Part shown: in pieces, positions 47,292 through 63,837 of the stretch
Position numbering within the stretch: position 1 is the first letter of the stretch
Layout: the number at the start of each line of letters is the position of its first letter
DNA from: Pontibacter cellulosilyticus
GTDB taxonomy: Bacteria > Bacteroidota > Bacteroidia > Cytophagales > Hymenobacteraceae
Length of the DNA stretch: 64,000 nt
Reading direction: 5' to 3'
Assembly (NCBI RefSeq): GCF_014306105.1
Contig: NZ_JACRVF010000001.1
Span: 760,413 to 824,412, forward strand
Position numbers and translations under genes: made by a program
The notes under the pieces: model-generated
The model's input: the letters and a program-made list of their open reading frames with translations, nothing else
Databases searched by the model: none
What the model was told of the DNA's origin: nothing

Positions 47292-47350
47292 CTTAGCTAA
47301 GATACAGACTAGTGCAGGCTTATACTTTGTTCTCCATCAAATCTTCCAAC

Positions 47351-48175
47351 ATGAATTCTTATACTTTGCTTCTGAGTAAACTGGCTGCTTTTGTCCTGCT
47401 ACTGCTTACGGCTGGGTGCAAGGCTCCTGAAACGGCACAGCAAATGCCCACGGATACCCCAACTACTACGGCAGAACTGGTGATCAGCCAGGCTACGAGT
47501 ATGGAAGGTGCTTGGCGATTGGAAGATGACGCAGCGGGTGGCAAAGCAGATGTTACTGCTGTTAAGATCGTCCAGGACGGCTATTTTACAGTAACCGTGT
47601 ATGACCAGCAGGCCAGAAAGTTTATAGGTACTTACGGCGGCACTTTTTCGAATATAAATGGCCGCCTTACAGGAAAGTATGAGTTCAACACCTTCGACTC
47701 TACCTTGGTAGGAAAATCGGTATCAGGAACATCAGCTTTACAAAACGGTAAATGGCGCACCACCGGGCTGGGCAGAAGCGGAGATGTGGCAGAAACTTGG
47801 GTGAAGATAGATGAACAACGCAGTAGTTCTCCCCTTGCCGGCACCTGGCGCATATCCGGCCGTGAGCGCAACGGGCAAATGAGTACCATGCAGCCCGGAC
47901 CGCGCAAAACATTGAAGATACTCTCGGACTCACGCTTTCAGTGGATAGCCTTTAACTCAGAAACAGGGGAATTTTCCGGAACCGGCGGTGGGACTTACAC
48001 TGCGCAGAATGGAAAGTATACGGAGAACATCGAATTCTTTTCACGCGACCAGGAGAGAGTGGGCATGCAGCTGACCTTTGATTATGAGGCAAAGGACGGC
48101 AAGTGGCACCATTCCGGCAAGAGCAGCACAGGCAATAAAATAAACGAGATCTGGGAGCGGATTTCTTCAAAATAA
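47351..48175 (+). CDS. Lipoprotein with two lipocalin-like repeats
   Basis: A 274-residue envelope lipoprotein. The ATG at 47351 is chosen over a GTG at 47312 because it places a proper lipoprotein signal at the start (MNSYTLLLSKLAAF, lipobox LTAGC). The mature part has two similar beta-rich domains of about 105 residues: the first starts GAWRLEDDAAGG and ends AETWVKI, the second starts GTWRISGRERNG and ends NEIWERI. The G-x-W opening and W-x-I closing match lipocalin-like domains that bind small hydrophobic molecules. No ligand can be proposed. It lies 69 bp after the SDR gene. Confidence 0.75.
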   Translation: MNSYTLLLSKLAAFVLLLLTAGCKAPETAQQMPTDTPTTTAELVISQATSMEGAWRLEDDAAGGKADVTAVKIVQDGYFTVTVYDQQARKFIGTYGGTFSNINGRLTGKYEFNTFDSTLVGKSVSGTSALQNGKWRTTGLGRSGDVAETWVKIDEQRSSSPLAGTWRISGRERNGQMSTMQPGPRKTLKILSDSRFQWIAFNSETGEFSGTGGGTYTAQNGKYTENIEFFSRDQERVGMQLTFDYEAKDGKWHHSGKSSTGNKINEIWERISSK

Positions 48176-48282: not shown

Positions 48283-49131
48283 ATGGCTGAAACCATCGAA
48301 CAACTGATCGTGACAAAGGCATCCGGCGAAAAAGTTTTGTTTTCGGTTGGTAAACTGGAGTTATCCCTGCGCAAGGCAGGAGCCAGCGAAGAAATAACGC
48401 AGGCTGTACTCTGCAAACTTGAGCCGAGGCTTTACGAGGGTATCTCCACCAGAAAGATCTACAAGATCGCCTTCTCCATACTTAACAAGCTTTCCAGGTC
48501 CACGGCAGCCAAGTATAGCCTGAAACAGGGAATCATGGAGCTTGGGCCGTCCGGGTTTCCGTTTGAAAAATTTGTGGCAGAGCTGCTCCGGGTACAAGGT
48601 TTTGCGACAGACATAGGTGTTTTTGTTGATGGGCAGTGCGTTCGGCACGAGATAGATGTAGTTGCTGTGAAAGACGGAAAGCGCTACATGATCGAATGTA
48701 AGTACCACAATCTGCACCACAACAAATCTGATGTAAAGATACCCATGTACATACAATCCAGGTTTAAGGATGTAGAGAAAGTATGGCCATCAGAGCAGGA
48801 GTATGAAATTCGTTTCCACCAGGCCTGGGTCGTAACCAACACCCGCTTCACCGACGATGCCATCCGCTACGCCTCCTGCGTAAACCTGCACCTTGTCGGC
48901 TGGGACTATCCTTACAAGGGCGGAATAAAAGACATGGTAGATTCCTTTGCGCTTTACCCGCTTACCTGCCTTACCACCCTTACACGCGCCGAAAAACAAA
49001 CACTGCTGGATATGAAAGTGGTGCTTTGCAAGGAACTGCACCACAACGAGGCCCTGCTGCACAAAGCAGGAGTCCGGGATAAACGCATACAGGAGGTACT
49101 GCAGGAAATAGCTAAACTTTGTGGCGACTGA
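48283..49131 (+). CDS. ATP-cone domain fused to a PD-(D/E)xK (Mrr-like) nuclease domain
   Basis: A protein of 282 residues from the ATG at 48283 (ATG 48244 and TTG 48220 are alternatives). Residues 5-90 form an ATP-cone (IVTKASGEKVLFSVGKLE, then GISTRKIYKIAF), the nucleotide-sensing module of ribonucleotide reductase and NrdR. Residues 90-215 are a restriction-endonuclease-like domain: FEKFVAELLRVQGF, HEIDVVAV with Asp125 and YMIECKYH with Glu138 and Lys140, the PD-(D/E)xK core. The C-terminal tail AGVRDKRIQEVLQEI may be a helix-hairpin-helix. Its stop lies one base before the next gene's ATG. A nuclease gated by ATP/dATP is inferred; no homologue function is known to me. Confidence 0.85.
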   Translation: MAETIEQLIVTKASGEKVLFSVGKLELSLRKAGASEEITQAVLCKLEPRLYEGISTRKIYKIAFSILNKLSRSTAAKYSLKQGIMELGPSGFPFEKFVAELLRVQGFATDIGVFVDGQCVRHEIDVVAVKDGKRYMIECKYHNLHHNKSDVKIPMYIQSRFKDVEKVWPSEQEYEIRFHQAWVVTNTRFTDDAIRYASCVNLHLVGWDYPYKGGIKDMVDSFALYPLTCLTTLTRAEKQTLLDMKVVLCKELHHNEALLHKAGVRDKRIQEVLQEIAKLCGD

Positions 49132-49132
49132 T

Positions 49133-50644
49133 ATGAAGGAAAATAACAGCAACATCCTGCGCCTGCGCAGACTGGGCATTGACACGCACACAGAGCATAT
49201 CATTTTCATGCGGGCAGATTCCCCTATTTGCCGCTCCGAAGGTTTTACTGCGAACACCAGAGTGGCGGTAAACTATGGCGGGCGCAGCATCACAGCTACT
49301 TTAAATGTGATAACCTCCGGGTTAATTGGTGATGGAGAGGCAGCACTCTCAGAAGAGGCTTTTGCGAAACTAAACGTGCAGGAAGGCGACCTGATTACGG
49401 TTACTCATTTGCAGCCTATACTTTCTTTTAGTGAGGTGCGGGCCAAAATGTTTGGTAAAAAACTTAACGATACTGTCATTCAACGTATCATTTCGGACAT
49501 AACCCGGGGGCTGTACTCTAAAATTGAGATAGCTGCTTTTGTTACCGTCTGCTCAGGAGACAACCTGGCTCTCGATGAAGTGATTTATCTTACCAAAGCC
49601 ATGATCAACTCCGGTTCCAGACTAGAGTGGGATGAGCCCATGATCGTAGACAAGCACTGTGTGGGAGGTTTGCCCGGTAACCGCACCACTCCCATTGTAG
49701 TACCCATTGTGGCTGCAGCTGGCCTGCTCATACCCAAAACTTCCTCCAGGGCTATCACCTCCCCGGCCGGTACCGCCGACGTGATCGAAACCATGACGCC
49801 AGTAAACCTGGGCCTGGAGCAGATAAAGCATGTAGTACGACAGGAAGGCGGATGTATGGCCTGGGGTGGTGCGGTAAAACTAAGCCCCGTGGACGATGTG
49901 ATCATCTCAGTAGAAAAGGCTCTGGACGTTGACAGTGCCGGCCAGATGATTGCCTCTGTTCTGTCTAAAAAAGCCGCTGCCGGATCTACGCACGTAGTCA
50001 TCGACATACCTGTAGGCGATACGGCAAAAGTACGGTCTAAAGAGGAGGCTTTTTTGCTGGAGTATTACCTCAGGGCTGTTGGCCTTTCGATAGGCATGGG
50101 TGTTGAAGTGATGATAACCGATGGCTCACAACCTGTGGGCCGTGGCATTGGTCCTGCACTGGAGGCAATCGATGTTCTGTCGGTTTTACGAAACGAGCCC
50201 GATGCCCCCGAAGACCTGAAAAGCCGTAGTGTGCAATTAGCTGGCCTCATGCTCGAAAAGGCCGGTGCCGCCCCGGATGGCAAAGGTGCTGCCCGTGCGC
50301 TGGAGATTCTGGAAAGCGGACAGGCGCTGGATAAATTTTACCGCATCTGTGAAGCACAGGGAGGTTTTAAAGAGCCTGTAACTGCTGGGCTGCGGCATGA
50401 TGTGCTGGCAATGACAAATGGTGTGGTGCGATCTGTAGACAACAGGAAACTGGCAAAAGTCGGTAAACTGGCCGGAGCCCCTAAGTCTCCGGGAGCCGGT
50501 ATATACTTTAACGCACCCATCGGGAAGCATATACAAAAAGGAGACACACTATTCACGATCTATGCCGCCTCGCAGGGCGAGCTGAATTATGCCCTTACTT
50601 ACCTTCATGGCTCTTCACACATTGTAGAACTGGCTGCTATATGA
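49133..50644 (+). CDS. Thymidine/AMP-phosphorylase family enzyme (archaeal-type)
   Basis: About 503 residues from the ATG at 49133 (a GTG at 49121 overlaps the upstream gene). The N-terminal extension (about 1-85) is the small domain found in archaeal AMP phosphorylase (DeoA-like) enzymes. The core carries IVDKHCVGGLPGNRTTPI near 175 and TSSRAITSPAGTADVIET near 203, the phosphate- and nucleoside-binding regions, and a C-terminal alpha/beta domain. Relatives split AMP or other NMPs with phosphate to give ribose 1,5-bisphosphate and base, or act on thymidine. Start and stop overlap with neighbours, so it is translationally coupled to a nuclease and a PRPP-synthetase homologue. Confidence 0.9.
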   Translation: MKENNSNILRLRRLGIDTHTEHIIFMRADSPICRSEGFTANTRVAVNYGGRSITATLNVITSGLIGDGEAALSEEAFAKLNVQEGDLITVTHLQPILSFSEVRAKMFGKKLNDTVIQRIISDITRGLYSKIEIAAFVTVCSGDNLALDEVIYLTKAMINSGSRLEWDEPMIVDKHCVGGLPGNRTTPIVVPIVAAAGLLIPKTSSRAITSPAGTADVIETMTPVNLGLEQIKHVVRQEGGCMAWGGAVKLSPVDDVIISVEKALDVDSAGQMIASVLSKKAAAGSTHVVIDIPVGDTAKVRSKEEAFLLEYYLRAVGLSIGMGVEVMITDGSQPVGRGIGPALEAIDVLSVLRNEPDAPEDLKSRSVQLAGLMLEKAGAAPDGKGAARALEILESGQALDKFYRICEAQGGFKEPVTAGLRHDVLAMTNGVVRSVDNRKLAKVGKLAGAPKSPGAGIYFNAPIGKHIQKGDTLFTIYAASQGELNYALTYLHGSSHIVELAAI

Positions 50645-51534
50645 GTATGATCTTTTTCGCTTTGCCCGGGAACGAACAGCTGGCAACTTCACTGGCTAGT
50701 ATACTTCAGGCCGAAGTTGGCGAGGCTGTAATACGAAATTTTCCGGATGGTGAGACCTATGTGCGCCTACTGTCGGATGTACAGCATAAGCAGGTGGTTC
50801 TGGTATGCACCCTGCACCAACCGGATGAAAAGCTGCTGCCCCTGTACTTCGTCTCCAGCGCAGCCCGCGACCTGGGTGCTGCCAGCGTTTGCCTGGTTGC
50901 GCCATACTTGGCCTACATGCGCCAGGACAAGCAGTTTAATCCCGGCGAGGCAATTACCTCCCGCCACTTTGCCAACCTGTTATCCGGCACCGTAGACAGC
51001 CTGCTAACAATAGACCCGCACCTGCATCGCTTCCACCACATGCACGAGTTGTACACCATACCTGCCACCGCCCTACACGCAGCACCTATCCTGGCTAACT
51101 GGATTGGAGAAAATATTCAGAAGCCATTGCTGATCGGCCCGGATGAGGAAAGTATGCAGTGGGTGAAAGAAGTGGCTGAACTGGCAAATGCCCCTTATTT
51201 AGTGCTTCACAAAACCAGGCTGGGCGACCGTGAAGTACAGGTATCGCAGCCAGAAATGCACGAATATTTATCACATACTCCTGTGCTTGTTGATGACATT
51301 ATCTCTACAGCCAAAACCATGATTGAAACAGTACATCATCTTAAAATGCTTACTCCACAACCTCCGGTTTGTATTGGGGTACATGCTGTTTTTGCTCCCG
51401 GCGCATATGAGGCACTCTTAGAAGCCGGTGCGGCACAAGTCATTACGAGCAACACTATTCCCCATCAGTCTAACCAGATTAGAATAGACCAGCTGTTAGC
51501 AGAAGTACTGCAGTATAACCTAACTCCCCGATAG
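50641..51534 (+). CDS. Ribose-phosphate diphosphokinase (PRPP synthetase) homologue
   Basis: A 297-residue protein with the two phosphoribosyltransferase-type domains of PRPP synthetase. The N-half has RNFPDGETYVRL near 35 and YLAYMRQDKQF near 95; the metal/ATP region DPHLHRFHHMHEL near 125 replaces the usual DLHAxQIQGFF; the PRPP/ribose-5-P loop is VDDIISTAKTM near 217. The divergence at the ATP loop suggests a class apart from housekeeping Prs. Its ATG overlaps the upstream phosphorylase stop (ATGA). It could supply PRPP for base salvage after NMP phosphorolysis, which is inference. Confidence 0.88.
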   Translation: MSMIFFALPGNEQLATSLASILQAEVGEAVIRNFPDGETYVRLLSDVQHKQVVLVCTLHQPDEKLLPLYFVSSAARDLGAASVCLVAPYLAYMRQDKQFNPGEAITSRHFANLLSGTVDSLLTIDPHLHRFHHMHELYTIPATALHAAPILANWIGENIQKPLLIGPDEESMQWVKEVAELANAPYLVLHKTRLGDREVQVSQPEMHEYLSHTPVLVDDIISTAKTMIETVHHLKMLTPQPPVCIGVHAVFAPGAYEALLEAGAAQVITSNTIPHQSNQIRIDQLLAEVLQYNLTPR

Positions 51535-51566: not shown

Positions 51567-53987
51567 TTATACTTTAGACGGCGCTGTGTTTCTCTCTTTC
51601 TCTGCCTGCAGCATGTTATTCAACCCCCTGAAAAATGCATCCGGGTTAAAGGAAATGCTATCAATGCCATGCTCTACCAGGAAAGCCGCATACTCCGGGT
51701 AATCGCTTGGGGCCTGTCCGCAAAGTCCTACTTTGGTGCCGGTCTTCTTCGCCTTTTCCAACGTCATCACAATCAGTTGCTGAACTGCCTCATCGAATGG
51801 GGAAAAGATATCGCTTAATAAACCAGAGTCCCGGTCTGCTCCCAAAGTAAGTTGTGTCAGGTCGTTGGAGCCGATAGAAAACCCATCAAATATTTCTGCA
51901 AACTGTTCTGCCAAAAGTGCGTTGCTCGGTATCTCCACCATCACGTATACTTCCAGGCCGTTGTCTCCCCGTTTCAGGCCATAGTTCGCCATCAGGTCTA
52001 TCACTTTCTTGCCTTCGTCCACGGTTCTACAGAACGGGATCATGAGCTTGATATTTGTGAGTCCTATCTCATCGCGCACCTTTTTCATGGCACGGCACTC
52101 CAGCTCAAAGCCCTCCTGGTATAACGGGTGATAATAACGGGAGGCGCCGCGCAAACCGATCATCGGGTTCGATTCTTCGGGCTCAAATTTTCTGCCGCCA
52201 ATCAGGTTGGCATATTCATTTGACTTAAAATCACTCATGCGCACGATCACATCCTTGGGGTAAAACGCAGCCGCTACAACAGCTGTGGCCTCAGCCAGTT
52301 TATCTACAAAATAGTTTTCTTTGTTTGCATAATGATGAGTCAGCTGCTCGATCTTCTCACGGGCTTCCTGGTCTTCTACCTTTTCAAAACGCTTCAGCGC
52401 CATCGGATGTATTTGGATGGCATTGTTAATGATAAATTCCATGCGCATAAGTCCTACGCCATCGTTCGGCAGGAATGAATATTTAAATGCCTGCTCCGGG
52501 TCGCCAAGTATAAGCATGGCTTTTGTATCGGGCTTTTCGAGTTTGCTCATGTCAGTTTTGGTTTCCTCCCACTCCAGCTCTCCCTCGTATACATAGCCCG
52601 TTTCGCCGCCAGCCGTAGACACGGTCACCTGCTGCCCGTCCTGTATCTTTTTTGTAGCATCGTTTGTACCCAGAACGGCAACGGCTCCTACTTCGCGCGC
52701 CACGATAGCAGCATGGCTGGTGCGTCCGCCTTGCTCTGTTACAATGGCGACTGCTTTCTTCAGAATAGGGTCCCAGTCAGGGTCAGTTTTTCGGGTTACC
52801 AGCACCTCTCCTTCCTGCAGTTTATCTATCTCTTTTGGCGAATGAAGTATACGCGCCACCCCAGACACAATGCGATTACTCAGGCCAATGCCGGAAGTAA
52901 GTATGGTACCCTCGTCTTTTAAAGTATACTCCGTAAAAAATGCCTGGTCTTTATGCTGACTCTGCACTGTCTCCGGTCTTGCCTGCACAATAAACAATTC
53001 CCCGGATTCCCCGTCTTTAGCCCACTCTATATCCATTGCCTGCTTGTAGTGTTCTTCTATGCGTTTGCCCCATTTTGCTAGTTGCACTACCTCCTCATCC
53101 TGCAGCACGAAAACCTCCTGCTTTTCGGGGGGAGTGTCTATGTTGAGGATGGCATCTGTTGGATTTTGCAATTCGCCTTCCTGCTTTTCAGCGTAAACCA
53201 TGGTTTTAGCCTTACTCCCTAATTTTCGCGAAATAATGGGTTGCTTTGCATTGCCAAGCATCGGCTCAAACACGACAAACTCATCGGTATTTACTGCTCC
53301 CTGCACAATATTTTCGCCCAAACCCCAGGAACCTGATATCACGATCACCTTCTCGAAGCCGGTATCCGGATCGAGGGTGAACATAACACCGGAGCAGGCT
53401 TTATCGGAACGCACCATCACCTGCACCCCCACCGACAAAGCTACCTGCATATGTTCGAAGTTATTATCTACCCTGTACTTGATGGCCCGGTCTGTGAACA
53501 GAGATGCGTAGCTATGATGGCAGGCTTTGTACAGGTTATTAAGTCCGCTTACGTTCAGGTATGTCTCCAGCTGCCCGGCAAAACTGGCAGTAGGCAGGTC
53601 TTCGGCAGTGGCGCTGCTTCTTACCGCCAGCGAAATTTTATCTCCGTATTCTGATTGCAGGTAAGTATAGCCTTCCTCAATCTGCTGCCGTATTTCCTCC
53701 GGAAAATCTACAGAAAGTATAAGCTCTCTTGCCTGCTTCCCTACCTCCGACAGGTTCTTGAACTGCTCTGTGTCCAAGCGGCCAAGTATAGTTTTTAACT
53801 GTTCTTTCAGGTTGTTATGCTCCAGGAAGTGCCAATATGCATCGGACGTTGTGGCGTAACCGTCAGGTACTTTTATACCTTCAGGATTAAGCTGGTTATA
53901 CATCTCTCCCAGCGACGCGTTTTTGCCGCCTACCTTGCTCAGGTCTTGGTAGCTGATGTCTTTGAAAAGTTTGATGAAAGGGGCCAT
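51567..53987 (-). CDS. ppsA: Phosphoenolpyruvate synthase
   Basis: An 806-residue enzyme that converts pyruvate, ATP and water to PEP, AMP and phosphate for gluconeogenesis. It has the N-terminal ATP-grasp domain (about 1-350, starting VGGKNASLGEM near 20), the swivelling phosphohistidine domain with GGRTSHAAIVAREVG near 420 and the C-terminal PEP/pyruvate barrel (about 480-795) with SIGSNDLTQLTLG near 730 and GLCGQAPSDYP near 765. Length matches PpsA (about 790). It converges with the PRPP-synthetase operon 32 bp away. Together with D-LDH and the glycosidase it points to carbon handling under energy limitation. Confidence 0.96.
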   Translation of the reverse strand: MAPFIKLFKDISYQDLSKVGGKNASLGEMYNQLNPEGIKVPDGYATTSDAYWHFLEHNNLKEQLKTILGRLDTEQFKNLSEVGKQARELILSVDFPEEIRQQIEEGYTYLQSEYGDKISLAVRSSATAEDLPTASFAGQLETYLNVSGLNNLYKACHHSYASLFTDRAIKYRVDNNFEHMQVALSVGVQVMVRSDKACSGVMFTLDPDTGFEKVIVISGSWGLGENIVQGAVNTDEFVVFEPMLGNAKQPIISRKLGSKAKTMVYAEKQEGELQNPTDAILNIDTPPEKQEVFVLQDEEVVQLAKWGKRIEEHYKQAMDIEWAKDGESGELFIVQARPETVQSQHKDQAFFTEYTLKDEGTILTSGIGLSNRIVSGVARILHSPKEIDKLQEGEVLVTRKTDPDWDPILKKAVAIVTEQGGRTSHAAIVAREVGAVAVLGTNDATKKIQDGQQVTVSTAGGETGYVYEGELEWEETKTDMSKLEKPDTKAMLILGDPEQAFKYSFLPNDGVGLMRMEFIINNAIQIHPMALKRFEKVEDQEAREKIEQLTHHYANKENYFVDKLAEATAVVAAAFYPKDVIVRMSDFKSNEYANLIGGRKFEPEESNPMIGLRGASRYYHPLYQEGFELECRAMKKVRDEIGLTNIKLMIPFCRTVDEGKKVIDLMANYGLKRGDNGLEVYVMVEIPSNALLAEQFAEIFDGFSIGSNDLTQLTLGADRDSGLLSDIFSPFDEAVQQLIVMTLEKAKKTGTKVGLCGQAPSDYPEYAAFLVEHGIDSISFNPDAFFRGLNNMLQAEKERNTAPSKV

Positions 53988-54308: not shown

Positions 54309-55640
54309 CTAATCTTGCTTTAGTGGCTTGTCCTCCTGTTCCTGCTGCCTTTTGATCATGTCTACAACAAGTCCTGACCAGGTAAAGTCCTGTGCCCCGT
54401 TGCCTTCGCCGGTGAAGGGGTTGTAGTACTCCCTGAACCCGCTTTTGCTGATGAGCTGTTTTATACTTTGCAGCAGTTTGGAAGCTTCTTCCGTGTAATC
54501 TTTCTCCAGCAGATGCGCCTGTATAAACCAATTGAACAACACCCAGGTAGGGCCACGCCAGATATAGACTGACTCATCAGGATTAAATGCCGGCTCGTTT
54601 GTGGCCAGCGAAGGAACAGGAAAAGGCACATGAAAGCCATCTTTATGCAGCAGATGCCGATCCAGCACCTGCTGGCATATTTCCTTTGGCACACTTTTAA
54701 GCACAACCGGGAAAAAGATGGTTCCGGTGCGCACTTTCAGCTTCTTATAATGGTGGCCATACAGATCATAAAAGGCAGCATCCTGCTTATCATACATAAA
54801 CTGCAGGATACTATTTTCAGTTAAACCAGCCTGCTCCTTAAAGTGACGTTCCTCCGAATCAGCAACTACAGCGCACAGTTCTGACAGTGCCACCAGGTTC
54901 TGTGCATATATGGTGTTAAACCCGACATCTTTCACAATAAATCTGTTGCTATTATAGATCTTTGGGAGGTTGTAGTTTTTAGAAAAGTTAAAAGCATCTA
55001 CCTGTAGTACTTTCCAGAACAGCAGCGGGCCTGCTTTCCCTTTGTAGCCTAGCACCGGATCATAGCTTGCTTTCCAGTCCATGCCCGATTCGAAAGGTGA
55101 GATAATGGACAGCAGCCCCTTCCCTTCAAAGTCCCTGTTTGCAGCCAGCCATTTGTAGTACTTCTTCAGCTTGGGCAACATCTCCTTTACAAATGCTATG
55201 TCTTTGTCTGCTTTGTATATGCACCACACAGCCTGCGCAGCCAGGGGTGGCTGTACCAGTGCCGACATGTGCGGCTTGTACAAATGCAGGATGTCTTTTG
55301 GTCTTAGCTGAAGCAAGTCGGTTACCCGGCCTGGCCATAGCCGCTTCCAGTAGTTCATGTGCCCAACAAAGCCATCGTGGAGTTGCATCTCAAACAGGCT
55401 CTGCATGTGTTTTTTAGCCATGTCTACCTCGCCCAGCGCTACTAGCGTGAACACATGGAAACAGGTATCCCAGAAATACTGGAAAGGGTACGTTTCGGGA
55501 GACGGTTTGGTGAAGTGGTAGTTGAAGCCTGCACGTTCTCCGCTTATCATGTTGCGGTGCAGCAGATCACGTGCCTGCTCTATCAGCTCTTCATCCGAAA
55601 GCACTTCCTGCTGCTGTTTGGTTTTACTTGATGTACTCAT
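54309..55640 (-). CDS. MGH1-like (GH63/GH37-related) glycoside hydrolase
   Basis: About 443 residues from the ATG at 55640 (an ATG at 55652 is also possible). The fold is an (alpha/alpha)6 barrel as in glucosidases and trehalases: YFWDTCFHVFTLVALGEVD near 60, SPFESGMDWKASYDP near 165 with a candidate catalytic Asp, DVGFNTIYAQNLVAL near 235, and YIWRGPTWVLFNWF near 370, followed by GFREYYNPFTGEGNGAQDF with the candidate second acid. It has no signal peptide, so it acts on cytoplasmic alpha-glucosides such as trehalose or a related glycoside. It overlaps the upstream membrane-protein gene, so both are one operon. Confidence 0.87.
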   Translation of the reverse strand: MSTSSKTKQQQEVLSDEELIEQARDLLHRNMISGERAGFNYHFTKPSPETYPFQYFWDTCFHVFTLVALGEVDMAKKHMQSLFEMQLHDGFVGHMNYWKRLWPGRVTDLLQLRPKDILHLYKPHMSALVQPPLAAQAVWCIYKADKDIAFVKEMLPKLKKYYKWLAANRDFEGKGLLSIISPFESGMDWKASYDPVLGYKGKAGPLLFWKVLQVDAFNFSKNYNLPKIYNSNRFIVKDVGFNTIYAQNLVALSELCAVVADSEERHFKEQAGLTENSILQFMYDKQDAAFYDLYGHHYKKLKVRTGTIFFPVVLKSVPKEICQQVLDRHLLHKDGFHVPFPVPSLATNEPAFNPDESVYIWRGPTWVLFNWFIQAHLLEKDYTEEASKLLQSIKQLISKSGFREYYNPFTGEGNGAQDFTWSGLVVDMIKRQQEQEDKPLKQD

Positions 55641-57198
55641 CCCAACCGGCATAGCTTTGTGTTTTCGGCCCTAACGGTATGGCGAGTGCAGCCACAGCCA
55701 AGCCTAGTACAAGACCAGTGATGTTTAGCGCCGTTGGCCCATCCAGAAACCACGGAACACCAGCCGCCACCAAGCCTAGCAGCACGTTCAGGTAACGCCC
55801 TAAACGCATAGGTTCTCCCATACATATCACCGACACCACTACTACCAAAGAACCCGCCAGGTGCAGTACATCCGCTACGGTGTCTTGAATGGGTACACCA
55901 AATACACCCGGTGCAAATACCATGGCAACACCCAGCAAAGTGGCTACTACCAGCGTCCAAGGAAAGCTCATGCCCCAAATAGAGGCTGCGTACACTTTAC
56001 CTGGCTCTTCCGGGAATTTCATCAACTCAGGAGCTTTTTCTTCTTTCTCGCCACCCTCAATAGTGCCGCCTTTCCAGAACAGTTTCCAGAACTTCTCACC
56101 TTTCTTCATCTTCTTTTTCACGAACTGTATCATAGCAATTACCTCATCTACCTCCAGCGGTATCATGGGTAGCATAATGGCAGCAGCCAATAGACAGAAC
56201 GTACACCATGCACCCACTACAATAGGCTGCGAGATAACCAGGAAAATATGCACCAGCCCAAGCGGAATTACCAGTATACCAAATATAGCCACCATCCAAG
56301 GCATGGTTCGCCAACGGGCAGGGCTACCCATCCAACCCATCAGAAACTCAAAAGTATAAGCAATGGCGCCCAAACCAGCATCAGAAATTGGCAGGGAGTG
56401 GGACATGTTAGAATTCAGTACCTGCTCGCTTTGGTTACCGAAGAATGGGTCCCAGACGGAGTCGATGTAGCCAAGTTGGAAAGCAGCCAGGTAGCGTGAA
56501 ACTACCCAACCAAAAAAGCCAAGCACCATCATGATCCAGCGCTGTGGCCAGCTACTGGGGTTGTAACTCCATCCCGGTGGTACCTTTGGGCCCATCTCCA
56601 TATACATGAGCATATTGGGCATGCCAGGTATGAGTATCGTAAGCGCTATGATCAGGGCACCCACCATGGTATCGTTGAGGTAAGCAACCGCAGAAGGCGA
56701 CCAGAAAAGTATAGGAGCCATGGTAAGCCAAATGCCCACAAAACAGCAGATCCATAGGCTGACTGGCCGGTTAGGTGTAAGGCCGCGCCACCCGAAGAAG
56801 ATGAGCAGAGCGCCGCTGATGATATCGCTCCACTTCATGAACGCGATACGTTGATCCAGGTCAAGCCACACGCTTCTGCCTCCTGATGGCTGCACCGTAC
56901 CGATGTTATAGTCAAAGGTAAGCGGAGAAAGCAGCACCCAAAACCCAAGTATAATGATCATCCAATACACCCACAGTGTTTGCATGTGGTGCATGTGCAG
57001 CATCTTCTTGCGCATCTCAGGGTCCATTTTCATGTCATGGTCTTTGCCCTTTCCGTTATTGTCATCATCTCCGCCATGCATTTCTTTATTGTGCTCACGC
57101 ATCTGCTTCTCCGCCATAGGCCGAGTTACGCCACGCATGCCCATGCCACCCTGCTGGTGTTGGTTGTCTTTGCTCTGCTCTTGCTGGTCTTTTTCCAT
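55624..57198 (-). CDS. VKOR-family / SPW-repeat multi-pass membrane protein with Met/His-rich N-terminus
   Basis: A 524-residue inner-membrane protein. Residues 1-75 are polar and rich in Met and His (HMHHM near 70, HDMKMDPEMRKKM before it), likely metal-binding. Next come SPW-repeat helices (WSDIISGALLIFFGWRGL near 125 and WLTMAPILFW near 160). The middle region contains a vitamin K epoxide reductase-like helix with the redox pair in GAWCTFCLL near 328. The remaining helices end in another SPW unit. The extra loop cysteines of classical VKOR are not obvious, so disulfide-generating activity is uncertain. It is divergent from the DUF2231 gene. Confidence 0.82.
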   Translation of the reverse strand: MEKDQQEQSKDNQHQQGGMGMRGVTRPMAEKQMREHNKEMHGGDDDNNGKGKDHDMKMDPEMRKKMLHMHHMQTLWVYWMIIILGFWVLLSPLTFDYNIGTVQPSGGRSVWLDLDQRIAFMKWSDIISGALLIFFGWRGLTPNRPVSLWICCFVGIWLTMAPILFWSPSAVAYLNDTMVGALIIALTILIPGMPNMLMYMEMGPKVPPGWSYNPSSWPQRWIMMVLGFFGWVVSRYLAAFQLGYIDSVWDPFFGNQSEQVLNSNMSHSLPISDAGLGAIAYTFEFLMGWMGSPARWRTMPWMVAIFGILVIPLGLVHIFLVISQPIVVGAWCTFCLLAAAIMLPMIPLEVDEVIAMIQFVKKKMKKGEKFWKLFWKGGTIEGGEKEEKAPELMKFPEEPGKVYAASIWGMSFPWTLVVATLLGVAMVFAPGVFGVPIQDTVADVLHLAGSLVVVVSVICMGEPMRLGRYLNVLLGLVAAGVPWFLDGPTALNITGLVLGLAVAALAIPLGPKTQSYAGWDEYIK

Positions 57199-57448
57199 AG
57201 TATAGGTAGGTTTAATACAGCGTTCTTAAATCTTAAGTAGAGGGATGATTTCTGCAAACTAAATTCAATCGACACTTCCTTATATTTGTATTTTTACCAC
57301 CAGTTAGCGGTATAAGTTTTAAAGATGCACTTTGAGTGACTATACTTTCTTATACAACCACTCCTACAAGGGTATGCTAATCGGTAACCAGTAACCATAG
57401 AAACGACCCAAAAAGTATAGCAGGTTCAACACCTGAATTTCTCTTCTC

Positions 57449-58150
57449 ATGATCCGAAGAATTAACAAATACATTGCTTTAAGTACACTGCTATTAAGTA
57501 TTGCCCTGCTTAACCCAACCGCCTCCTTTGCGCACGGCGGCGAGAAACATGACAAAAAAACAAAGAAGGAAGAGGAGGTATCGTCAGATACAGCTGCTGC
57601 GGCGCAGGATACAATTATACTTGAACAAGCAGAAATAACAGCTGCGGAACATGCACAGCACGAAAAGTCACCAGCAACCGTACATGCCTCACTTGATGAT
57701 TTTCCCAACCGGCACCCGTTGTTTGTGCACTTCCCAATCGTGCTGCTGCTGGTGGCTGCTGCGATACAACTGGCCAACGTTATTTTTCTGCGAAAAGAAC
57801 TCGATTGGATCACAACCCTTACGGTATTGGTCGGGTTTACGCTTGCTTTTTATGTTACTTACTTGGATCATCCGCATACCACCGGATTAACGGCCCATGC
57901 TGAGCTGGTACTCGAGCAGCATGATTTTTACGCTGATTGGACCATCTACCTTGCTGGCGCAGCCTTAATGGCACAATTGCTCAGCCAATTCCTTTTTAAA
58001 AGCAGGCGCTGGAGCGTTGCCTTGGTAGCAGTTGTGTTGGCAGGTGCTGCTTATACGGTTTCCATGGCAGGACACTACGGTGCCCAGCTTGTATACTTAG
58101 AGGGTATTGGACCAAAGGGGCAGTACCTCGAAACAGGCCATGCACACTAA
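57449..58150 (+). CDS. DUF2231 membrane protein
   Basis: A 233-residue protein with a signal-like N-terminus (about 1-28, ending SFAHGGEKHD), a Lys/Glu-rich, then Thr/Ala/His-containing linker, and four membrane helices from residue 90. The domain starts with NRHPLFVHFPIVLLLVAAA, the HPxxVHFPI signature of DUF2231, and keeps histidines in YLDHPHTTG and AGHYGAQLV that suggest heme or metal binding. DUF2231 proteins often accompany copper and cytochrome genes. It is followed by a strong terminator before the copper-ATPase gene. Confidence 0.88.
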   Translation: MIRRINKYIALSTLLLSIALLNPTASFAHGGEKHDKKTKKEEEVSSDTAAAAQDTIILEQAEITAAEHAQHEKSPATVHASLDDFPNRHPLFVHFPIVLLLVAAAIQLANVIFLRKELDWITTLTVLVGFTLAFYVTYLDHPHTTGLTAHAELVLEQHDFYADWTIYLAGAALMAQLLSQFLFKSRRWSVALVAVVLAGAAYTVSMAGHYGAQLVYLEGIGPKGQYLETGHAH

Positions 58151-58170
58151 AGTATAGCTTTGGATGCTCT

Positions 58171-58205
58171 AAAAGCTGCGCAGTAATCTTTACTGCGCAG
58201 CTTTT
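58171..58205 (+). terminator. Rho-independent terminator
   Basis: A 16-bp perfect stem: AAAAGCTGCGCAGTAA (58171-58186) pairs with TTACTGCGCAGCTTTT (58190-58205) over a 3-base loop. It ends the DUF2231 gene. Confidence 0.9.
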
Positions 58206-58275
58206 CGTTTAGAGGTATAGAACTAAGAGACAAGTAGCGGAAGCAGTCCGGCCATACTCCTTATCTAAGCACACC

Positions 58276-60288
58276 ATGGAGCACAAGCACAAGCACAGTC
58301 ACCATGACCACAGCCCCAAAGGAAAAGCAGAAGCAAAAGCTGACCAGGTAGAGGAACGGCTGGAAGAGAAAGCCTTACACGGCCACTCAGAAGCAATGCA
58401 CCACGACACCAGCGGCCGCCCACCTCACCAGGAGCACGGCCACGACCATCACCGCATGATGATCGAAGACTTTAAGAAGCGCTTCTGGATCTCGCTTGCA
58501 TTATCCATTCCGGTCATCATCATCAGCCCGATGGTGCAGCACATCCTGGGCTACTCCCTTGCCATACCCTATAACATGTTCATTGCCTTTGTCCTATCCA
58601 GCGTCATCTACTTTTATGGAGGATGGCCATTCCTGACAGGGCTGTTGGAAGAAGTGAAAAAAGGAACGCCGGGGATGATGACACTGATCGGTGTTGCCAT
58701 TACAGTAGCCTACCTTTATAGTTCTGCCGTAGCATTCGGGTTGCCGGGCATGGACTTTTTCTGGGAGCTGGCTACCCTGATCGTGATCATGCTGCTGGGC
58801 CATTGGATCGAGATGCGCTCGGTGCTTGGAGCCTCCAAAGCTTTGGAGTTGCTGGTAAGTATGATGCCGGCAGTAGCACTGCTGATAAAGGATGGAGAAG
58901 CTGTACCTGTACGAATTGAAGAGCTGCAAAAAAACGACCTGATCCTGGTAAAACCCGGGGAGAAAGTACCCGCCGATGGCACTGTGGAAGATGGCGAGAG
59001 CCACCTGAACGAAAGTATGCTAACCGGTGAGAGCAAACCAGTAAAGAAACTGAAAGGCGATAGTGTGATTGGCGGCTCAATTAATGGCAACGGTTCACTT
59101 AGGGTACGGGTGGAGCATACCGGCAAAGAGAGCTACCTGAACAAGGTGATCAACCTGGTGCAGGAGGCGCAGAAGACAAAATCTGAAACGCAGCGCCTGG
59201 CAGACCGGGCTGCCAAATGGCTGACGTACATAGCTCTTACCGCTGGTTTTGGCACCTTAGCTGTTTGGCTGCTGCTGGGCCAGGATTTTGCCTTTTCCTT
59301 GGAGCGCATGGTTACCGTTATGGTGATATCCTGTCCGCATGCCTTGGGCCTGGCTATTCCACTGGTAATAGCAATTTCCACGGCAGTTTCTGCAAATAAT
59401 GGCCTGCTGATCCGGAATAGAACCGCTTTTGAGAATTCACGCAAGATCACCACCATCATCTTCGACAAAACAGGGACGCTTACCCAGGGCTCTCATGAGA
59501 TAGCCGCTGTGGTTGCATTTGACGAAGCTATGGATGAACGGGAAATGCTGCGCCTTGCCGCCGGCGTGGAACAGAATTCAGAACACTTTATCTCGCAAAG
59601 TATACTTAGAAGAGTAAAAGAAGAAGGGATAACCATACCAACTTCAGAATCCTTTAATTACCTCCCCGGAAAAGGGCTGGAAGGTATGGTAGAGGGCAAA
59701 GATGTAAAGGTTGTAGGCCCGAACTTTATCAGGGAGTTTAACATAGCTGTGCCTTCCAGCGCAGCAGAAGAAGGCGTGGAAACAGTGGTTTACGCATTGA
59801 TAGAAGGAAAGCCAGTCGGGTACATTACCATGCGCGACCAGATACGGCCTGAATCGCCAGAAGCCATACGCGTGCTGAAGAAGAACGGCATCAAGAACCT
59901 GCTGCTGACAGGCGACAATGAACGTGTAGCCAAAAGTGTGAGCGACCAACTACAGATGGATGGCTACCTAGCTAATGTACTGCCGCACCAAAAACAGGAA
60001 AAGGTAAAGGAGCTGCAGGCACAGGATGAGTTTGTAGCCATGACAGGCGACGGCGTGAACGACGCCCCTGCCCTGGCCCAAGCCGATGTGGGCATTGCCG
60101 TTGGTTCTGGTACAGACGTGGCCGCCGAAACAGCCGATATTATACTTGTGAACAACAACCCACAGGACATTGCCTCACTTATACTTTTCGGCAAAGCTAC
60201 CTACAAAAAAATGATCCAGAACCTGGTATGGGCAACCGGCTATAACGTGATAGCCCTACCGCTGGCCGCAGGCGTTTTGTACCAGTAG
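58276..60288 (+). CDS. copB: CopB-type P1B copper/silver ATPase, shortened by an in-frame amber codon
   Basis: A 670-residue metal-export pump. Residues 1-62 are His-rich (HKHKHSHHDHS, HGHDHH), a metal-binding tail. The pump core has TGES at 250-253, the helix-6 metal site CPH at 353-355 (the CPH form marks the P1B-3/CopB subgroup), the phosphorylated Asp397 in DKTGTLT and the hinge MTGDGVNDAPALAQA. The HP dipeptide of the N domain reads HF (residues 437-438). Translation stops at TAG 60286-60288 within the last membrane pair. The same frame continues for 35 codons with the missing helix 8. Activity of the shortened form is doubtful unless the stop is read through. Confidence 0.88.
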   Translation: MEHKHKHSHHDHSPKGKAEAKADQVEERLEEKALHGHSEAMHHDTSGRPPHQEHGHDHHRMMIEDFKKRFWISLALSIPVIIISPMVQHILGYSLAIPYNMFIAFVLSSVIYFYGGWPFLTGLLEEVKKGTPGMMTLIGVAITVAYLYSSAVAFGLPGMDFFWELATLIVIMLLGHWIEMRSVLGASKALELLVSMMPAVALLIKDGEAVPVRIEELQKNDLILVKPGEKVPADGTVEDGESHLNESMLTGESKPVKKLKGDSVIGGSINGNGSLRVRVEHTGKESYLNKVINLVQEAQKTKSETQRLADRAAKWLTYIALTAGFGTLAVWLLLGQDFAFSLERMVTVMVISCPHALGLAIPLVIAISTAVSANNGLLIRNRTAFENSRKITTIIFDKTGTLTQGSHEIAAVVAFDEAMDEREMLRLAAGVEQNSEHFISQSILRRVKEEGITIPTSESFNYLPGKGLEGMVEGKDVKVVGPNFIREFNIAVPSSAAEEGVETVVYALIEGKPVGYITMRDQIRPESPEAIRVLKKNGIKNLLLTGDNERVAKSVSDQLQMDGYLANVLPHQKQEKVKELQAQDEFVAMTGDGVNDAPALAQADVGIAVGSGTDVAAETADIILVNNNPQDIASLILFGKATYKKMIQNLVWATGYNVIALPLAAGVLYQ

Positions 60289-60396
60289 GGCATCATGATC
60301 TCCCCTGCCGTAGGCGCTGCACTGATGAGCTTGAGTACCGTGATCGTGGCTATTAATGCCCAGCTGCTTCGAAGGGAAATCAAACAAACCTCGTAA
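60289..60396 (+). pseudogene. Detached C-terminal helix 8 of CopB
   Basis: Directly after the TAG, in the same frame, 35 codons read GIMISPAVGAALMSLST and VIVAINAQLLRRE before TAA at 60394-60396. This is the expected P1B ATPase ending, including the MSxST metal-coordinating motif of helix 8. Only one codon (TAG, one change from TGG or CAG) separates it from the rest. It is therefore either a nonsense mutation, a read-through site or a sequencing error. Confidence 0.88.
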
Positions 60397-60435
60397 AACT
60401 TTAAGGAAGCTATACTTTACCTAAACCAAATAACT

Positions 60436-60888
60436 ATGAAAAAGACAGTTCTTAATGTAACTATTATCCTGCTAACAGGCTTGCTGGCCTGCCAGGAAAG
60501 CGATGATGACGTTCAGGAAGTGCTCCAGAATGAAAGCGAACGCCAGGAGATGTATATGGCTATACTGGATAACGAGGAAATGCGCAACGAAATGATGGAA
60601 ATGATGCGTGAACGTAACATGAGCGGCCCCATGGGACGAGGCGGTATGATGCAGGGTGGAATGATGGGAGATACCATGCGTATGGGTGGTATGAACCGGC
60701 AACAGATGCAGGCACGTATGCAGGAAATGATGAAACTATGTGAAACAGACACAGCAGCCTGTAACACTATGGCACAAACGATGCTGCAGCATCAACCTAT
60801 GATGCGCAACATGATGCAACACATGCAACAGCAGGGCATGGTAGACGCAAACTGTCTGCAGCAGATGCAACGCAGGATGAACCGTTAA
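60436..60888 (+). CDS. Methionine-rich lipoprotein, probable copper binding
   Basis: A 150-residue lipoprotein: signal MKKTVLNVTIILLTGLLAC with lipobox LLAC, then an acidic segment and a long helical, Met-rich region. I count 31 Met in 150 residues, many in MM pairs and MxxM spacing (EMMEMMRERNM, GGMMQGGMMGDTM), plus three extra Cys in the C-terminal third (LCETDTAACNT, ANCLQQ). Met clusters of this kind bind Cu(I)/Ag(I) in envelope proteins such as CusF or PcoE-like carriers. It lies 39 bp after the CopB frame end and 60 bp before the barrel gene. Confidence 0.8.
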   Translation: MKKTVLNVTIILLTGLLACQESDDDVQEVLQNESERQEMYMAILDNEEMRNEMMEMMRERNMSGPMGRGGMMQGGMMGDTMRMGGMNRQQMQARMQEMMKLCETDTAACNTMAQTMLQHQPMMRNMMQHMQQQGMVDANCLQQMQRRMNR

Positions 60889-60948
60889 ACTGTTTTCCCG
60901 GATGTGGCAAACTGGTAAGCCTGAGGCTGCTCATTAATAATCTAAACT

Positions 60949-62313
60949 ATGAAGAAAAAGCTATACTTAGGGTTCGTGCTTATTTTACTGTGCGCAACTA
61001 CAGCTGCAGCGCAGCACGAACACCATCAAAAACAAAAGCAACCTCAGGATACCACCAAACATAAACAGCATAGCATGCAGCACGGCGATATGCATCATGG
61101 CTCCTCCCCCATGTCTCATGCATTCTCACGCAATCTGCCCATGAACCGGAATGCATCCGGCACCGGCTGGTTGCCAGACGAATCGCCGATGTACGGGAAC
61201 ATGTTCCACAGCGGTGATTGGATGTTTATGCTGCATTACAATATATTTGCCCGATATAACAACCAGGACATTTTTGAAAGCGGCAATCGTGGCGACAGCC
61301 AGTTTGATGTGCCCAATTGGTTCATGTTTATGGGGCAGCGCCTGGTCGGAGAACGTGGTCTTTTCCGGTTCAGCACCATGATTTCCTTAGACCCCATCAC
61401 TGTTGGTGGCAATGGCTATCCGCTCCTCTTCCAGACCGGCGAGACGTTCAATGATAAGCCTTTGATTGACCGCCAGCACCCACACGATCTTTTCAGTGAA
61501 CTATCGATTGGCTATACCCATATGCTTTCGGAAGATGCAGACGTATTTTTATACTTGGGTTACCCAGGCGAACCTGCTATCAGCAACGTAGCTTTTATGC
61601 ACCGGCCTTCGGCGCTCAACAATCCTGATTCCCCATTGGGCCACCACTGGCAGGATGCCACCCACATCACCTTTGGTGTGGCAACGCTTGGCTTCCGGTA
61701 CCACAACTTTAAACTTGAGGGCTCATCTTTTACCGGCCGTGAGCCTGATGAAGAACGCTATGACTTTGACAAGCCCCGTTTCGACTCCCGTGCCCTGCGG
61801 CTTACTTTTAATCCATCATCACAGTGGAGTTTGCAGGCATCAACGTCGTTTGTAAAAAGCCCGGAGGTAAATGAGCCAGACGAAGACGTGTACCGCTCCA
61901 CGGCTTCTGCGCTGTATGGAAAAAAACTGGCAGGTGACAACCGCTTCTTTACTGGTTCTGCAAACTGGGGCTTTAACTACGTGGATGCACACCACAAAGA
62001 ACATTCTTTTTTACTTGAGGCGAGTCTGCAAAACGACAGGTTTTCCGTATATAGCCGGTATGAGTTTATTCAAAAATCAGCAGAAGAACTAGGTTTTGAA
62101 GAAGAAGCTTTTGGCCATGATGAGGTGCTGGGTGTAAATGCCTTAACAGTTGGCGCAAACAGGCAGGTTTTTGAGATAGGTACTGTTAATTTTAACCTGG
62201 GAGCCCAGCTTAGCCTGTTCAGGCCCGACAGCCAATTACACCCATATTATGGCAAATTGCCATTAAGCGGACAGGTATACCTGCGGGTATTTCCTAAACT
62301 TATGGTGCCATAA
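60949..62313 (+). CDS. Outer-membrane barrel protein with His/Met-rich N-terminus
   Basis: A 454-residue secreted protein with a signal peptide (about residues 1-22), a His/Gln/Met-rich linker (EHHQKQKQPQ, MQHGDMHHGSSPM, about 23-60) and a long beta-strand-rich domain with amphipathic strands (FMLHYNIFARYN, GLFRFSTMISLD, ITFGVATLGFRYHNFKLEG) ending near a terminal aromatic-hydrophobic strand VYLRVFPKL. The pattern fits an outer-membrane barrel. The histidine cluster and its position behind copB and the Met-rich lipoprotein suggest a role in copper exit or binding, which is inference. A strong bidirectional terminator follows. Confidence 0.78.
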   Translation: MKKKLYLGFVLILLCATTAAAQHEHHQKQKQPQDTTKHKQHSMQHGDMHHGSSPMSHAFSRNLPMNRNASGTGWLPDESPMYGNMFHSGDWMFMLHYNIFARYNNQDIFESGNRGDSQFDVPNWFMFMGQRLVGERGLFRFSTMISLDPITVGGNGYPLLFQTGETFNDKPLIDRQHPHDLFSELSIGYTHMLSEDADVFLYLGYPGEPAISNVAFMHRPSALNNPDSPLGHHWQDATHITFGVATLGFRYHNFKLEGSSFTGREPDEERYDFDKPRFDSRALRLTFNPSSQWSLQASTSFVKSPEVNEPDEDVYRSTASALYGKKLAGDNRFFTGSANWGFNYVDAHHKEHSFLLEASLQNDRFSVYSRYEFIQKSAEELGFEEEAFGHDEVLGVNALTVGANRQVFEIGTVNFNLGAQLSLFRPDSQLHPYYGKLPLSGQVYLRVFPKLMVP

Positions 62314-63030: not shown

Positions 63031-63837
63031 TTATACTTTCTGCACTCTCTTTCTCACCTTCCTCACCGAAGGAGACGAAACGTAGTATAGCACGAAACCC
63101 GAAAGTATGGTTAACAGGCCAAAGATAGAGAAAGCACGCAACAGTATATTCCCAAAATTGTCTCTGCCGGCATAATCCATGGTGTGTAGCATCCAGAAGA
63201 AATCAAACACACGCCACTGGTCATGACGAATTGCCTGGAAGGTGCCTAGATCTGCTGAAACATACACTGTACACTTATCCGGCTGACTAAAGGAAACAGC
63301 CCAGGCAGGCAACGGCTTTTCGCGGTACTCGTGGTGCGAACCAACCTCTGTCAGGTACTCCACCTTCTCTACTTTTATCGGATCTGCCATTTGCCGTTTA
63401 GCAACGGTTACAGCCATCTCTTCAGAGAGCGGTGAAACGAAATTTCCAGTCTCGGCATTTGCCAGCTGCACTTTTATATTGGAAGTATGGCCAGGCCTGT
63501 GCCCTCCTGCTGCATGCTCAGCATGATCTATGTCTCCGGAGAAATATCGCACCTGGTAAGTAGGCATACCATCGATCTCAATTAACTGCACCGACAGCAC
63601 AGAATCGACCTGGCCCTTTGCCTTTAGGTTATCCAGCACCACCTGTGGCGAAACCATGTTCAAAGATGCCGAGAAATTCCGCTTCTCTTTGCGAAGATGG
63701 TCCCCGTGTACTTCGTCAATATCGTTCCAGCTGAAGTATAATCCTCCAAGCGTCCAGAACAGGAACTGAACACCAAGTATAAGACCTAAATAACGGTGAG
63801 ATTTACGGATATAATACTGCTTACCTTTTAGCTTCAT
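63031..63837 (-). CDS. PepSY-domain membrane protein
   Basis: A 268-residue membrane protein. An N-terminal helix follows a basic segment (YYIRKSHRYLGLILGVQFLFWTLGG, here as ends YYIRKSHRYLG and FWTLGG, about residues 8-32), a periplasmic region of about 190 residues holds two PepSY-like units (with a His cluster DIDHAEHAAGGHRPGH near 105), and a second helix is at about 235-255 before a basic tail. PepSY-associated proteins often sit beside TonB receptors and reduce or bind metals or heme. The coding end of a probable receptor lies just upstream at the window edge. Confidence 0.88.
   Translation of the reverse strand: MKLKGKQYYIRKSHRYLGLILGVQFLFWTLGGLYFSWNDIDEVHGDHLRKEKRNFSASLNMVSPQVVLDNLKAKGQVDSVLSVQLIEIDGMPTYQVRYFSGDIDHAEHAAGGHRPGHTSNIKVQLANAETGNFVSPLSEEMAVTVAKRQMADPIKVEKVEYLTEVGSHHEYREKPLPAWAVSFSQPDKCTVYVSADLGTFQAIRHDQWRVFDFFWMLHTMDYAGRDNFGNILLRAFSIFGLLTILSGFVLYYVSSPSVRKVRKRVQKV

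Follow-up and report, generated by a model that had tools for sequence, protein, structure and literature searches.

Gene content of the locus

The window (i.e., the whole stretch of 64,000 nucleotides of Pontibacter cellulosilyticus that was analysed, G000:C1:760413-824412) contains three genes in tandem, called here NUC, AMPP and PRS (Table 1). The coordinates, strand and spacing that the initial annotation gave to this trio are correct: the gap between the stop of NUC (49131) and the ATG of AMPP (49133) is 1 nt, and the stop of AMPP overlaps the start of PRS in the ATGA at 50641. Genes of this kind are annotated today as ATP-cone protein, thymidine phosphorylase, ribose-phosphate pyrophosphokinase and MBL hydrolase. 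As judged from sequence (domains, order, intact active sites and conservation), the trio is a real three-gene set.

Table 1. Features of the trio locus and of a related operon (positions in the window, except where another locus is named).
Feature	Position	Strand	Description
NUC	48283..49131	+	ATG 48283, stop 49131; ATP-cone + Mrr/AF1548-type PD-(D/E)xK predicted nuclease + AF1548-like C-terminal domain; 282 aa
NUC ATP-cone, residues 2-80	48286..48522	+	K12, G15, K24 and T56 near-invariant
NUC nuclease core + C-terminal domain, residues 90-282	48550..49128	+	E95, H122, E123, D125, E138 and K140 invariant
AMPP	49133..50644	+	NMP-phosphorylase homologue (NF003338/PRK04350, archaeal DeoA-like); 503 aa
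PRS	50641..51534	+	PRPP-synthetase homologue, PRK07199/NF005537 subfamily; 297 aa
Phosphoenolpyruvate synthase (PPS)	51567..53987	-	Conserved convergent neighbour in Pontibacter; context, membership unproven
DUF4488 gene	47312..48175	+	Frequent upstream neighbour in Pontibacter; context only
ATP-cone-glucoamylase fusion (PF10091)	L080:1241-2776; L081:9317-10852; also L082, L083		One apparent operon with NUC

Beside the trio (window 54309-62313), there is a stress/metal-type island that includes genes for an MGH1-like glycoside hydrolase, a VKOR+SPW membrane protein, a DUF2231-like protein and a heavy-metal P-type ATPase. Further on (63031-63837), a membrane protein is encoded whose start resembles a gene adjoining four-gene clusters (quartets, see below) in L146 and L149; this suggests an island of the same kind as at those quartets. 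Near the trio, the matches of an FNR box scan are at chance level, and so are those of sigma-70 and terminator scans.

NUC: an ATP-cone and a predicted nuclease

The first protein had been described as an ATP-cone joined to a PD-(D/E)xK core (Asp125, Glu138, Lys140), and this is borne out by the Pfam matches of homologues, by fold superposition and by residue conservation. In Pfam, NUC itself is above the cut-off for Mrr_cat; its scores are 25.0 bits for the ATP-cone (cut-off 25.8, i.e., 0.8 below) and 23.1 bits for AF1548-like_C (cut-off 23.9). Among 23 homologues scored in the same manner (from Bacteroidota, Chlamydiota, one candidate-phylum bacterium and archaea), 23 match Mrr_cat, 20 AF1548-like_C and 19 the ATP-cone, the latter at E<=0.001 (best 1.3e-11).

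In the AlphaFold2 model of NUC (mean pLDDT 90.7), residues 2-80 have the ATP-cone fold and superpose on the ATP-cones of NrdA and NrdR (Z about 10, rmsd 1.8-2.1). Residues 90-282 correspond to AF1548 (PDB 1y88; E 7e-37, model Z 23.7, about 40% identity). The nuclease part also fits the AspBHI fold and is similar in fold to EndoMS/NucS-type enzymes (Z 9-11). It has both the PD-(D/E)xK fold and a D...E-x-K active site (D125/E138/K140). The assignment of the ATP-cone rests on the fold match, since a profile search with this domain alone ranked designed repeat proteins at the top. The nuclease core is kept in homologues: E95, H122, E123, D125, E138, K140, Y156, R160 and D163 are identical in 101/101 sequences, and K12, K24 and T56 of the ATP-cone in 98-100 of 101. 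NUC is thus an ATP-cone joined to an AF1548/Mrr-like PD-(D/E)xK predicted nuclease. A literature search combining ATP-cone, endonuclease and Mrr gave no match, and the papers returned for «AF1548» looked unrelated, as judged by title.

The initial annotation had considered a phage response. In PADLOC, the nuclease part of NUC does match defence families; the nuclease domain matches the CARF-PDDEXK and Card1 families, and the principle of the architecture, a sensor plus a PD-(D/E)xK nuclease, is shared with them. The trio could then be an anti-phage or abortive-infection module, where a nucleotide-sensing nuclease comparable to Card1/Can2 degrades nucleic acid upon a phage-induced change of ATP/dATP, AMPP and PRS removing or rebuilding nucleotides. 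This is most improbable: (i) the defence matches are limited to the nuclease half of NUC, and AMPP and PRS have none; (ii) most neighbouring genes are related to metabolism, metals or stress, not to defence; (iii) NUC is broadly present in flavobacterial and cytophagal genomes. It must be added that no CARF sensor domain is found in NUC, the N-terminus being the ATP-cone, and that the phage records and viral contigs scanned contain no NUC homologue, which limits a phage origin without excluding it. The phage link is not retained.

AMPP and PRS

The archaeal type attributed to the second protein is confirmed. AMPP scores over the cut-offs of NF003338 (662 bits) and TIGR02645 (597 bits), and its closest solved relative is the AMP phosphorylase of Thermococcus (4ga5, 1.6e-102). 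With TIGR03327, the curated AMP phosphorylase equivalog, AMPP reaches 499 bits for a cut-off of 535; it is therefore named an NMP-phosphorylase homologue only. The block KTSSRAITSPAGTADV, read by eye, is near-unchanged between AMPP and 4ga5 and differs in human thymidine phosphorylase. According to PMC8376864, the Thermococcus enzyme, which AMPP resembles, takes all NMPs and dNMPs as substrates. No match to the R15P isomerase (TIGR00511) is found in the source genome, while the control genomes match.

The third protein is indeed a PRPP-synthetase homologue (NF005537, 402 bits for a cut-off of 322); the altered ATP loop that had been attributed to it is not found. On alignment with the second PRS of the source genome (27% identical), FPDGE, RQD, H127, K191 and R193, i.e., the ATP-site and catalytic motifs, are retained and invariant or near-invariant. 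The differences concern the canonical PDxGG and the [AG]GT 5-phosphate loop, in place of which PRS has PDxESxQWV and [AG][RKH]T; both PDxESxQWV and the basic residue of this loop are particular to the family.

Linkage and distribution

Among 50 Pontibacter genomes, 18 carry full copies of AMPP (20 copies in all), and 17/20 of these copies are clustered with NUC, plasmid-type quartets counted (the exceptions are L152, L154 and L155); thus, the trio is not due to chance. The gene-neighbourhood survey also establishes its conservation outside the source genome, with the trio in 7 of the 13 Pontibacter contigs fetched by NUC. In L008 and L010, PPS comes directly after NUC, with no AMPP-PRS in between; at this site, AMPP-PRS is thus cassette-like in its behaviour. 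The trio-less Pontibacter genomes tested have no AMPP in 5/6 cases and an unlinked one in the sixth. At the scale of 395 Bacteroidota genomes, NUC is present in 73 and AMPP in 4, all 4 also carrying NUC. Since most NUC-bearing Bacteroidota and most of these trio-less Pontibacter are devoid of AMPP, AMPP-PRS is an optional add-on.

The fixed stoichiometry that had been deduced from the tight spacing must be rejected, because NUC usually occurs without the other two genes (13 of the 18 NUC-bearing genomes without the trio have no AMPP) and because the gap between NUC and AMPP in trios varies from -14 to +247 nt.

In one genome (G198), three copies of NUC are found: one in a quartet, one with the MBL gene described below and one alone (L096, L105, L110). 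In two Nitrososphaerota loci (L028, L029), the genes close to NUC look, by eye, like those of Hsp20 and chaperonins and do not include MBL; AMPP is elsewhere in the genome.

The MBL partner

MBL belongs to the beta-CASP/RMMBL proteins. Among solved structures, it is best matched by the RNase TTHA0252 (8e-75), reported to be a 5'-3' exoRNase with probably an endoRNase activity too (PMC4229858). MBL directly follows NUC in 30/61 genomes (14/31 genera), which is a commoner pairing than the trio or the quartet, and directly precedes it in 7 flavobacterial contigs; both orders thus occur. In the source genome (G000), the MBL homologue is unlinked (C1:391286, about 416 kb from the trio). The quartet NUC-MBL-AMPP-PRS is carried by plasmids of Pontibacter actiniarum and of Criblamydia sequanensis (Chlamydiota), the latter quartet being flanked by phosphoketolase, glucan phosphorylase and acetate kinase genes. 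It is also found in two Bacteroidota other than the source genome, in L085 (with an inserted SDR gene) and in L096. The set may be written NUC-(MBL)-AMPP-PRS, the trio being its variant without MBL.

On plasmids of Proteobacteria, MBL, AMPP and PRS occur as a group from which NUC is absent. On that of Legionella fallonii, MBL-AMPP-PRS-phosphoketolase are in tandem, and this phosphoketolase is 47% identical to the Criblamydia enzyme. In L169, the gene located between PRS and MBL-AMPP (2227-4596) carries the annotation xylulose 5-phosphate 3-epimerase and is distantly related to phosphoketolase (23% over 753 aa).

The genes could be adjacent without acting in a common pathway, NUC(-MBL) and AMPP-PRS being separate cargo of shuffling stress/metal-resistance islands, with NUC devoted to RNA/DNA turnover and AMPP-PRS to the adjustment of the nucleotide pool. 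NUC being mostly without AMPP-PRS, the direct succession of NUC and PPS, devoid of AMPP-PRS, in L008 and L010, and the recurrence of Cu-ATPase, efflux and stress genes around NUC and AMPP loci all agree with this. Nevertheless, the same order, NUC-(MBL)-AMPP-PRS, is conserved across two phyla, many of the junctions overlap or measure 1-12 nt, and the NUC-linked AMPPs form one clade in the tree (95/94), so the NUC/AMPP linkage has lasted. An absence of joint function is thus rather unlikely, though it keeps a substantial minority of the probability. The NUCs of quartets are scattered over at least three positions among their NUC-MBL relatives in the tree; this scatter may reflect repeated joining, or loss and transfer, between which the deep NUC branches do not decide.

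The nature of the partner also bears on a role of NUC in DNA repair or dNTP balance, in which a dATP-reading ATP-cone would gate an EndoMS/Mrr-like endonuclease and AMPP-PRS would recycle dNMPs. The EndoMS/NucS-like fold noted above points in this direction, as do the reading of dATP by the ATP-cones of RNR and NrdR (PMC5794259, PMC11226230) and the acceptance of dNMPs by the Thermococcus enzyme (PMC8376864). However, a fold likeness by itself shows no function, and the gene that usually accompanies NUC encodes a homologue of an RNase and not a DNA-repair protein; this role is improbable.

Regulation and stress context

A predicted operon with a FixK2-type site is formed in Bradyrhizobium by the genes bll3117-bll3116-bll3115, whose annotations are thymidine phosphorylase family, PRS and MBL. 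Their products respond to microoxia; in a fixK2 mutant, bll3115 and bll3117 are down, like the phosphoketolase-acetate kinase genes bll2518-bll2517 of the same regulon (PMC6515984, PMC9104804). The gene identities are those of the papers' annotation, and the operon belongs to another phylum and is without NUC. At the lxa locus of B. cenocepacia, an MBL-superfamily protein is up in patient isolates; the portion of the source text searched does not name the phosphorylase.

A number of NUC-MBL pairs have genes for universal stress proteins next to them. In four genomes (L080-L083), the genes after NUC encode first a glutaredoxin-like protein and then an ATP-cone fused to a glucoamylase (Table 1), which would link the ATP-cone to the breakdown of reserves. 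The scavenging or stress pathway put forward in the initial annotation fits the beta-CASP RNase gene present in the cluster elsewhere and the low-oxygen control of the Bradyrhizobium triad; its phage-response version is not supported, no homologue being found in the phage and viral collections scanned.

Proposed pathway

The most likely role of the trio would be to recycle nucleic acid in times of energy stress. The best explanation, to which about even chances are given, is a route coupled to stress that would lead from nucleic acid to NMPs, then to ribose-1,5-bisphosphate (R15P) and PRPP, and would be gated by adenine nucleotides. The trigger would be energy stress (low oxygen or low ATP). 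NUC, gated by adenine nucleotides through its ATP-cone, and the TTHA0252-like MBL RNase would degrade nucleic acid towards 5'-NMPs, this RNase coming from an unlinked gene in the source genome and from the next gene in other lineages. AMPP would then convert NMP + Pi into base + R15P, and the PRS relative would convert the pentose into PRPP or R5P. These products would serve for base salvage or, where phosphoketolase and acetate kinase are present, for the formation of ATP. The likeliest gating would be a restraint of NUC by ATP or dATP, the direction being a guess. The putative NUC/MBL and AMPP steps are derived from homology, those of PRS and gating from inference.

Phosphoketolase as an energy-yielding sink fits Criblamydia and Legionella. 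It was rejected for Pontibacter, where a search of 50 genomes (without positive control) gave no match; the sink there would be PRPP salvage or the pentose phosphate pathway. A Rubisco-type route was likewise rejected, the source genome having no match to R15P isomerase.

A broader and more speculative proposal, less probable than the route itself, is that of a bacterial self-digestion. ATP-cones would act as adenylate switches on catabolic hydrolases (the nuclease here, the glucoamylase in related operons); as ATP/dATP fall, nucleic acid would be turned into usable pentose phosphate, an emergency fuel, by a cassette mobile between phyla.

Comparison with known systems

If the proposed route is true, NMP phosphorolysis, characterised in archaea, would extend to a bacterial stress-linked module. 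Moreover, the ATP-cone, studied in RNR and in the repressor NrdR, would control the breakdown of nucleic acid and perhaps of glycogen.

The gene set shares with the archaeal pentose bisphosphate pathway (Thermococcus NMP phosphorylase, R15P isomerase, Rubisco) a homologous phosphorylase and the expected R15P product. It differs from it in that (i) R15P isomerase is not found in the source genome; (ii) the partners of the phosphorylase homologue are instead homologues of PRPP synthetase and of an RNase, together with the predicted ATP-cone nuclease; (iii) the set is bacterial and often plasmid-borne. The Bradyrhizobium microoxic operon has, by annotation, the thymidine-phosphorylase-family, PRS and MBL genes in common with the gene set, without a reported nuclease.

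As for NUC, residues 90-282 have the same fold as the AF1548 nuclease (function unknown), whose solved chain (1y88) comprises the nuclease and C-terminal parts only, whereas an ATP-cone precedes them in NUC. Card1/Can2 also combine an N-terminal nucleotide-sensing domain with a Mrr-like nuclease and may work alike, but NUC has an ATP-cone in place of CARF, and no CRISPR context is seen. Finally, RNR and NrdR have the ATP-cone fold in common with NUC, while the effector here is a predicted nuclease (a glucoamylase in other genomes) and not an RNR or a repressor.
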